42,053 bases of DNA from a virus: the IMG/VR virus record IMGVR_UViG_3300006736_000016, positions 1 to 42,053 of that record; one strand, given 5' to 3'. Position numbers and translations under genes: made by a program. Shown here one piece after another: positions 339 through 7,832 of this stretch. Position 1 is the stretch's first letter. Each line of letters begins with the position of its first letter. Below the pieces are notes generated by a model, which was not told the origin of the DNA, ran no database searches, and saw nothing but the letters and a program-made list of their open reading frames with translations.

Positions 339-408
339 TGAACCGAAGGAGAATTTCAAATCCACAGGGAGGATTGCTAAATGTTATATGATGACGAATA
401 ATTATAAA

Positions 409-679: not shown

Positions 680-719
680 GTGTTAAACTTTAGAATTTTC
701 CCCGATAACACCATATGGT
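680..719 (+). repeat. Hairpin-palindrome element, copy 5
   Basis: Stem GTGTTA (680-685) with TAACAC (706-711), then the palindrome ACCATATGGT (710-719). The arms differ from copies 2, 7, 8 and 9 but still pair and end at the palindrome. Confidence 0.65.
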
Positions 720-962
720 AGTAGTGATTAACTCGTACGAGAGGAGCCATCTCCGTAAAAGAAAACTTGCTAATGGTTAAGTTTTAGAAGAGTAGATGTG
801 CTTAATAAAAAGATAATAGAATTAGCTATTAGTAAATGGCATGATTATATTATCAATTAAATAGCACATAAGCTGGAAGCGATAGGAGGAGAAAACTTGG
901 GCCTTTACATAGGGATTCTTTTACGGAGGATTGGCTAGAACGAGTTAAAGCGTTAAGCTACC
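717..962 (+). ncRNA. Candidate large structured RNA module
   Basis: Nested long-range pairings close this 246-nt segment: GGTAG (717-721) with CTACC (958-962); TTAACTCGT (728-736) with ACGAGTTAA (940-948), 9 bp; AGCC (745-748) with GGCT (933-936); CTCCGTAAAAGAA (751-763) with TTCTTTTACGGAG (916-928), 13 bp. Inside are AAACTT/AAGTTT (763-768, 779-784), ATGTGCT/AGCACAT (796-802, 863-869) and TAATAG/CTATTA (814-819, 826-831). No coding frame fits. The strand is a guess; the folding applies to either strand. I recognise no known RNA family. Confidence 0.5.
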
Positions 963-964
963 AA

Positions 965-990
965 GGTATGTTTACACCATACCATATGGA
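965..990 (+). repeat. Hairpin-palindrome element, copy 6
   Basis: Stem GGTATG (965-970) with CATACC (978-983), 7-nt loop. CATATG follows at 983-988, sharing the last C of the stem. Confidence 0.65.
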
Positions 991-2151: not shown

Positions 2152-2185
2152 GGTAAATTTACACAAAGTTGTATTACCATATGGT
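2152..2185 (+). repeat. Hairpin-palindrome element, copy 10
   Basis: Stem GGTAA (2152-2156) with TTACC (2174-2178), 17-nt loop, then CATATG at 2178-2183. It sits between the start of the 178-aa gene and the structured segment at 2206-2275. Confidence 0.65.
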
Positions 2186-7426: not shown

Positions 7427-7753
7427 ATGGGTTATATTAAAGAATTAGTATTAGATTTCTTGAAGGCTATTCAAGTAGGTTATAATAATTTTAAACGCTC
7501 TTATTCATTAAATAGAGGCATGACTAAAACATTAGCAATACATCATAAATTAGTAAAAGAAAGGGGTCATTGTGGCGCTTTTCTAATAGAGATAGAAACT
7601 TACATTGATGATATTAGTGATGAAGATATATCAATATGTGTTGATGACTTTATTAATTGGGCTGAAACAGTAAATGACGAATTTCCTGATATTGCACCCA
7701 AAAAAGAACCAGAATGGGAAGAAGTTTTGTCTTATCAAAGGCATAAAAGCTAG
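7427..7753 (+). CDS. Unknown 108-aa protein whose stop lies in a tRNA
   Basis: ATG 7427 is preferred (GAGTG 6 nt upstream); GTG 7418 is the alternative. The N-half is basic and aromatic (G-Y-N-N-F-K-R-S-Y), the C-half acidic (D-D-I-S-D-E-D-I), probably helical. It is similar in outline to small phage proteins of unknown role. The TAG stop (7751-7753) is part of the 5' acceptor strand of the tRNA that follows. Confidence 0.65.
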   Translation: MGYIKELVLDFLKAIQVGYNNFKRSYSLNRGMTKTLAIHHKLVKERGHCGAFLIEIETYIDDISDEDISICVDDFINWAETVNDEFPDIAPKKEPEWEEVLSYQRHKS

Positions 7754-7832
7754 GGTTTCCGAGTTTGGTCAAAGGAGCCGGACTTAAGCTCCGGTGTTTA
7801 GTACTTCGTAGGTTCAAATCCTACCTCTAGCA
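7749..7832 (+). tRNA. tRNA-Leu (anticodon UAA)
   Basis: 84 nt. Acceptor GCTAGGG (7749-7755) pairs with CTCTAGC (7825-7831), discriminator A 7832, no encoded CCA. Anticodon stem CCGGA/TCCGG with loop CTTAAGC, giving anticodon TAA at 7785-7787. A long variable arm follows, as required for class II tRNA-Leu, and the T-arm is GTAGG-TTCAAAT-CCTAC. It reads UUA, by far the commonest Leu codon in these AT-rich genes, so it probably supplements the host supply. It overlaps the preceding coding sequence by 5 nt. Confidence 0.93.

Follow-up and report, generated by a model that had tools for sequence, protein, structure and literature searches.

The closest published idea to the arrays described here is the shuffling of promoter early stem-loops (PeSLs), elements of T4-type phages associated with modular shuffling of small genes (Arbiol 2010 and Comeau 2014, here as cited in PMC4503421 and PMC3950731). 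PeSL-like elements are also on record for the archaeal tailed virus HGTV-1, in which a conserved TATA-like box and an inverted repeat precede ORFs (PMC3950731). Magroviruses are reported in PMC10160649 to be ubiquitous in the surface ocean, and their published gene profiles include neither integrase nor transposase in one account (PMC10768690) and no integrase in another (PMC12999244). The literature searched, which did not reach the key magrovirus and PeSL papers, contained no account of palindromes, cassettes, or repeats in magroviruses.

The DNA analyzed here (hereafter the window) comprises an entire IMG/VR record, 42,053 bp long. Pfam searches showed that it encodes a chaperonin, ribonucleotide reductase, and ATP-dependent ligase, and PolB, clamp loader, sliding clamp, and ThyX were recognized by reading the translations. 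The magrovirus gene set described in PMC10768690 resembles that of the window, GroEL included, and because of this fit we take the window to come from a marine archaeal virus that is magrovirus-like, an assignment made from the described gene set. The window PolB is 54-58% identical to those of six array-bearing records and ~45-51% identical to those of more distant ones; 58% was the best match in a search for closer relatives through PolB. A single tRNA-Leu(TAA) gene is present at positions 7749-7832.

Within its first 2.3 kb, the window contains 11 copies of the palindrome CCATATGG or its one-mismatch form. A pattern scan placed exact copies at 109-116 (the first of the array), 329-336, 441-448, 711-718, 982-989, 1100-1107, and 2177-2184, the variant CCATATGA at 531-538 and 2274-2281 (the last), and the variant TCATATGG at 1263-1270 and 1431-1438. 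Given one mismatch at 4 of the 11 sites, the array in the window may be partly decayed. The variant half-site ATGATTC occurs at three of these junctions, to the right of one palindrome (531-538) and to the left of two (1263-1270 and 1431-1438), a pattern that would fit half-sites owned by the units and exchange near the dyad. The intervals differ in content: folding identified non-coding foldback units at 115-330 (z = -5.8) and 1106-1264 (z = -6.2), the latter carrying at its right end a GCGNNAGCA hairpin that BLAST showed to be common to other viruses, and unit clustering delineated a coding unit at 1437-2178. Downstream of the array, and ahead of the first genes on that side, ACTATTCTCACTATTCTCA-type stretches recur at 2640-2850, inverted copies among them, together with a run of TAC triplets.

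The interval of interest lies between the palindromes at 711-718 and 982-989, which the preliminary description noted without recognizing that they belong to this series of 11. That description delimited a structured element at 717-962 that filled the inter-palindrome space exactly. The flanking CCATATGG copies are indeed there, but the fit is not exact: an additional 19-nt hairpin, GGTATG-TTTACAC-CATACC, found both by the end-hairpin search and in the fold (965-983, plus strand), separates the rod from the right palindrome, and the true unit spans 717-983 (267 nt), from the GG of one palindrome to the CC of the next. The element is thus structured, non-coding, and palindrome delimited, but it is one unit of an array, not a lone RNA gene.

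Folding of 717-962 gave -76.0 kcal/mol on the plus strand (z = -7.5, with 0 of 200 dinucleotide shuffles as good) and -56.9 kcal/mol on the minus strand (z = -6.8, again with no shuffle as good), so that the structure asserted earlier withstood comparison with shuffled sequence on both strands. For the complete unit at 717-983, annotated on the plus strand and likewise folding on both, z was -7.3 in the unit-class folding comparison, and the minimum-energy fold had 88 predicted pairs on the plus strand (10 of them G-U) and 80 on the minus strand (1 G-U). The two long-range helices reported previously, one of 9 bp (728-736 with 940-948) and one of 13 bp (751-763 with 916-928; inverted pair I18), are perfect complements on the plus strand and are present in the fold. 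The multi-branched shape with three internal hairpins was not recovered, the minimum-energy structure being one long unbranched rod with a single apical loop.

The rod contains no long ORF, in agreement with the earlier reading that no frame codes for protein; a 13-codon mini-ORF starting with TTG lies inside the unit, lacks an acidic ending, and could be due to chance. Nor does the rod resemble a known RNA, as had also been stated: an Rfam search of the window yielded no match at the gathering score and nothing at E ≤ 1 within 600-1100. Homologs of the rod were not detected when viral contigs were scanned for the exact helix pattern or when a phage collection was searched, and in a BLAST comparison of the window array with 58 related records, essentially only the end motifs matched.

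Palindrome arrays are not confined to the window. A scan of viral contigs for two palindromes 80-110 bases apart returned 76 stretches, which must include chance matches at this pattern length, and many of which have 5-25 palindromes within a few kilobases. The same two-palindrome pattern had 17 matches in cellular genomes, none archaeal by title, a number close to chance by a rough estimate. In 29 records, selected by the pattern except for the window itself, we counted 5 to 24 sites each, compared with at most one for the reversed control pattern. Among records selected through PolB, all five of at least 80 kb carried arrays (5, 6, 9, 9, and 13 sites; 0-3 for the reversed control), and shorter fragments often had zero sites; the PolB-selected and pattern-selected sets overlap, G057 being the same record as L093. 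Across 31 array-bearing loci totaling 107 kb, there were 287 exact copies of CCATATGG and 47 one-mismatch variants, the latter approximately the number estimated by chance for 107 kb. The array-bearing records derive from many metagenomes. In one record (G020, 184,733 bp, locus L086), CCATATGG arrays lie at two separate places, PolB is present twice, and the array proteins number six; this may be an unusually large virus or the genomes of two viruses joined together.

Clustering of the units of all loci by BLAST allowed their order to be compared between related viruses. Locus L053 reads c18 c19 c20 c21 c22 c23 c3 c24 c4 c5 c25 c26, and locus L075 reads c18 c4 c5 c20 c21. -c22 -c3 c19 -c24 c25 c26; the two have 11 units in common, of which three are inverted and several moved. 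A second comparison, between L114 and the record that carries L065 and L117, revealed 16 common units, among which four are flipped with respect to the others. In these two best pairs, the units are 72-97% identical and collinearity is maintained beyond the array, at 90-96% identity, whereas the 60-base flanks drop to ~0.5 identity where the neighboring unit differs (that is, outside conserved adjacencies). Inside the array, both limits of the BLAST segments fall within a few bases of a palindrome, as in L053 5104-5609, which corresponds to L075 10145-9638 in inverted orientation. Because homology stops at the palindromes while order and orientation differ, recombination has cut and rejoined these arrays at or within CCATATGG. 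Known site-specific recombinases were not detected among the 29 records, many of which are fragments: tyrosine recombinases (PF00589) were found in 0 of 29, compared with all 14 control genomes, and serine recombinases (PF00239) likewise in 0 of 29.

The units fall into two kinds, single genes that have hairpins at their ends and non-coding foldbacks, a subset of which carry acidic mini-ORFs. As a class, the non-coding units fold strongly: for those of 80-320 nt, the mean z was -2.2, compared with -0.5 in control windows from the same loci (P = 8e-17), a comparison in which some units are homologous and so not all are independent. The rod unit ranked third of 167 by folding strength. Compensatory evidence for the class, drawn from alignments of homologous units, is modest: 35% of changed pairs were kept in homologous non-coding units and 28% in coding controls, and 59% and 48%, respectively, of doubly changed pairs, differences given without a significance test. 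RNAalifold pair counts, being biased towards consistency, were rejected as evidence.

A ribosome-binding site followed by a short ORF was found in 43 of 131 non-coding units, compared with 10 in shuffled sequence, and 23 of 44 short ORFs end in three acidic residues (for example, MFFDDDE). The window counterpart, MLYDDE, is encoded on the plus strand at 381-401 (ATG...TAA), downstream of GGGAGG at 367-372 in the unit 329-441, and is like the acidic mini-ORFs of related arrays. A recurring unit of ~90 nt combines a GC-GNNA-GC hairpin, a Shine-Dalgarno sequence, and an ORF for a hexa- or heptapeptide (for example, MFFDDDE, VFNDEDE, or MLYDDE); it occurs in the window (381-401), in L045, L055, L064, L066, L079, L095, and others, and several arrays have two or three copies.

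An ORF of at least 70 aa is present in 100 units. Many coding-unit ends form hairpins of the type GGTnn-CTTTG-nnACC, with stems that differ between units, and hairpins starting at the palindrome GG were found at 224 of 622 ends, compared with a background of 12% for any GGN across these loci. CTTTG was present at 67% of the 5' ends and 52% of the 3' ends of coding units, and over all inward ends, CTTTG accounted for 29% and CAAAG for 0.9%. TATA-like hexamers occur at 33% of coding 5' ends, compared with 17% of 3' ends, and several coding 3' ends have CCTTCGGGG-type hairpins; by these motifs, some coding units have promoter-like starts and terminator-like ends. In the window, the end-hairpin search located the hairpin GGTAA-TACAACTTTGTGTAAAT-TTACC, with TTATAA directly after it, where the coding unit has its 5' end (2152-2178, minus strand), and this hairpin is the window DNA motif most widely common to other viruses. 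Short hairpins, GC-GNNA-GC loops included, are a feature of many unit ends. When all units were considered, pairing of one unit end with the other was weak, with 20% beyond the 5% threshold, and the end-to-end test was therefore replaced by analysis of local end hairpins.

The proteins encoded by the units are mostly unrelated to known families, as judged from searches of 61 coding-unit proteins against Pfam, PHROGs, and NCBIfam, and no transposase was evident among them. Within this set (alignment A2), single proteins gave matches to an ice-binding-like domain (PF11999, E = 7e-14) and, among PHROGs, to an ocr-like anti-restriction entry (E = 2.5e-4). Most arrays are connected by one family of about 20 proteins, which includes a 178-aa protein encoded on the minus strand at 1566-2102 of the window and assigned with a profile built from alignment A3; this profile detected the family in 36 of 39 array-bearing records, with 1-6 copies in each. 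The C-terminus is often acidic. The 178-aa protein is predicted to be helical (pLDDT 85, pTM 0.55), and it had no match in PDB or viral models by sequence or Foldseek and no identity from Pfam, PHROGs, or NCBIfam. A peptide-pattern search for its relatives found none, and the family emerged through the arrays. The start residue alone is invariant, so the protein does not look like a conserved enzyme. By the predicted structure, this is an undescribed helical family.

Taken as a whole, the unit at 717-983 is probably one of the cassettes, in this case non-coding, that palindromes delimit in the array of a magrovirus-like genome. The competing notion that 717-962 is an independent structured RNA gene, incidentally located between palindromes, draws on its strong fold, its G-U strand asymmetry, and its lack of a coding frame; we regard it as very unlikely, considering that the neighboring intervals are likewise palindrome bounded, several of them strongly folded, and that units of like layout move as blocks in relatives. 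Nor are the array and its reshuffling at all likely to be products of assembly: the compared records are metagenome assemblies, but a repeat of 8-12 bp is far below the usual assembly k-mers, the unit ends are unit specific, and arrays recur across many metagenomes with collinear flanks, all of which makes an artefact highly improbable. As to why the rod is retained, most likely its plus strand is transcribed and would fold into a long stem RNA, making it an RNA cassette of the array. It is less probable, and on balance we consider it unlikely, that the fold acts as DNA, either as a cruciform or as a single-stranded hairpin in recombination or replication, as could be argued from the good folding of both strands of 717-962 and from the short hairpins at many unit ends, including those with GC-GNNA-GC loops. 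The G-U pairs, 10 of 88 on the plus strand and 1 on the minus strand, would be G-T mismatches in DNA and are suggestive of RNA, although the count is biased, having been made on minimum-energy folds, which favor G-U by construction.

What the palindromes themselves do admits several readings. Tentatively, and with the balance leaning somewhat against so complete a claim, we propose that magroviruses have an undescribed cassette-shuffling system. It would consist of a self-complementary 8-bp site and a joining activity without a known recombinase, through which cassettes are exchanged irrespective of orientation; the cassettes would be self-contained and carry genes, mini-peptides, or structured RNAs, the rod being one of the last kind, and a protein family would be associated with the system. 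Since CCATATGG is identical on either strand, joining could take place between any pair of sites and in either orientation, and exchange could invert, delete, or move a unit. Each unit would bring along its own half-site and, with its own promoter-like and terminator-like signals, could stay expressible anywhere. Joining might occur by cut-and-religate at the palindrome, through a novel recombinase, or by recombination during replication. Alternatively, the palindromes could be operators for a viral regulator, one per small transcription unit, with shuffling as a by-product when short identical sequences undergo ordinary homologous recombination or template switching. Dimeric regulators bind palindromic sites, and palindromes such as these, found at the promoter-like ends of many units, would suit them; that no site-specific recombinase (PF00589 or PF00239) was found in the 29 records also favors operators. 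Yet palindromes also lie between non-coding units and at gene 3' ends, the breakpoints in the inspected unit pairs fall on them, and 8-12 bp would be short for homologous recombination, which leaves this explanation somewhat unlikely. A further reading takes the units for miniature mobile elements that have hairpin ends and use ATAT as their insertion site, so that arrays grow beside an earlier unit and create ACC-ATAT-GGT junctions. This appears quite unlikely: the inverted GGTnn..CTTTG..nnACC motifs at coding-unit ends are designed like transposon ends, but the stem letters vary between units, simple insertion alone does not account for inversion in place, and the 61 unit proteins offer no evident transposase. 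If the proposed shuffling system is real, a constant site for the reshuffling and flipping of whole cassettes would show how magroviruses vary their accessory genes, and it would offer an exact 8-bp target for experiments, together with a catalog of cassette genes and RNAs to which no function is assigned.

In the literature searched, we found no description of a palindrome-bounded layout of reshuffled and flipped cassettes, but individual features are shared with several known systems. Against DNA transposons and MITEs, which have common terminal inverted repeats and a related transposase, the arrays show inverted end motifs, and no transposase family is represented among the 61 unit proteins. 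Multiple inversions between repeated sites are common to the arrays and to shufflons or invertible segments; unlike in those systems, the array units are also moved and exchanged and are unrelated in sequence, and recombinases of known families (PF00589 and PF00239) were absent from the 29 records, many of them fragments. Integrons likewise consist of rows of small cassettes with joining sites that travel with the cassette, whereas the arrays have a symmetric 8-bp site used in both orientations in place of attC, cassettes equipped with promoter-like and terminator-like signals of their own, and no integrase (PF00589) found in those 29 records. HGTV-1 is similar in that a motif precedes many ORFs and has a proposed role in regulation and shuffling, and differs in that its description mentions no CCATATGG palindrome (PMC3950731). 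PeSLs, as far as the citing descriptions go, are structured elements between genes that have promoter and terminator features and are said to mediate module shuffling in tailed viruses; the arrays share with them the exchange of modules between related genomes at structured boundaries, and carry promoter-like and terminator-like motifs at some unit ends. The arrays are set apart from PeSLs by an exact self-complementary 8-mer as the constant part, by units that are inverted as well as moved (a distinction again drawn from the citing descriptions), by hairpins at both ends of the units, and by the inclusion of non-coding foldback and mini-peptide cassettes along with an associated protein family.
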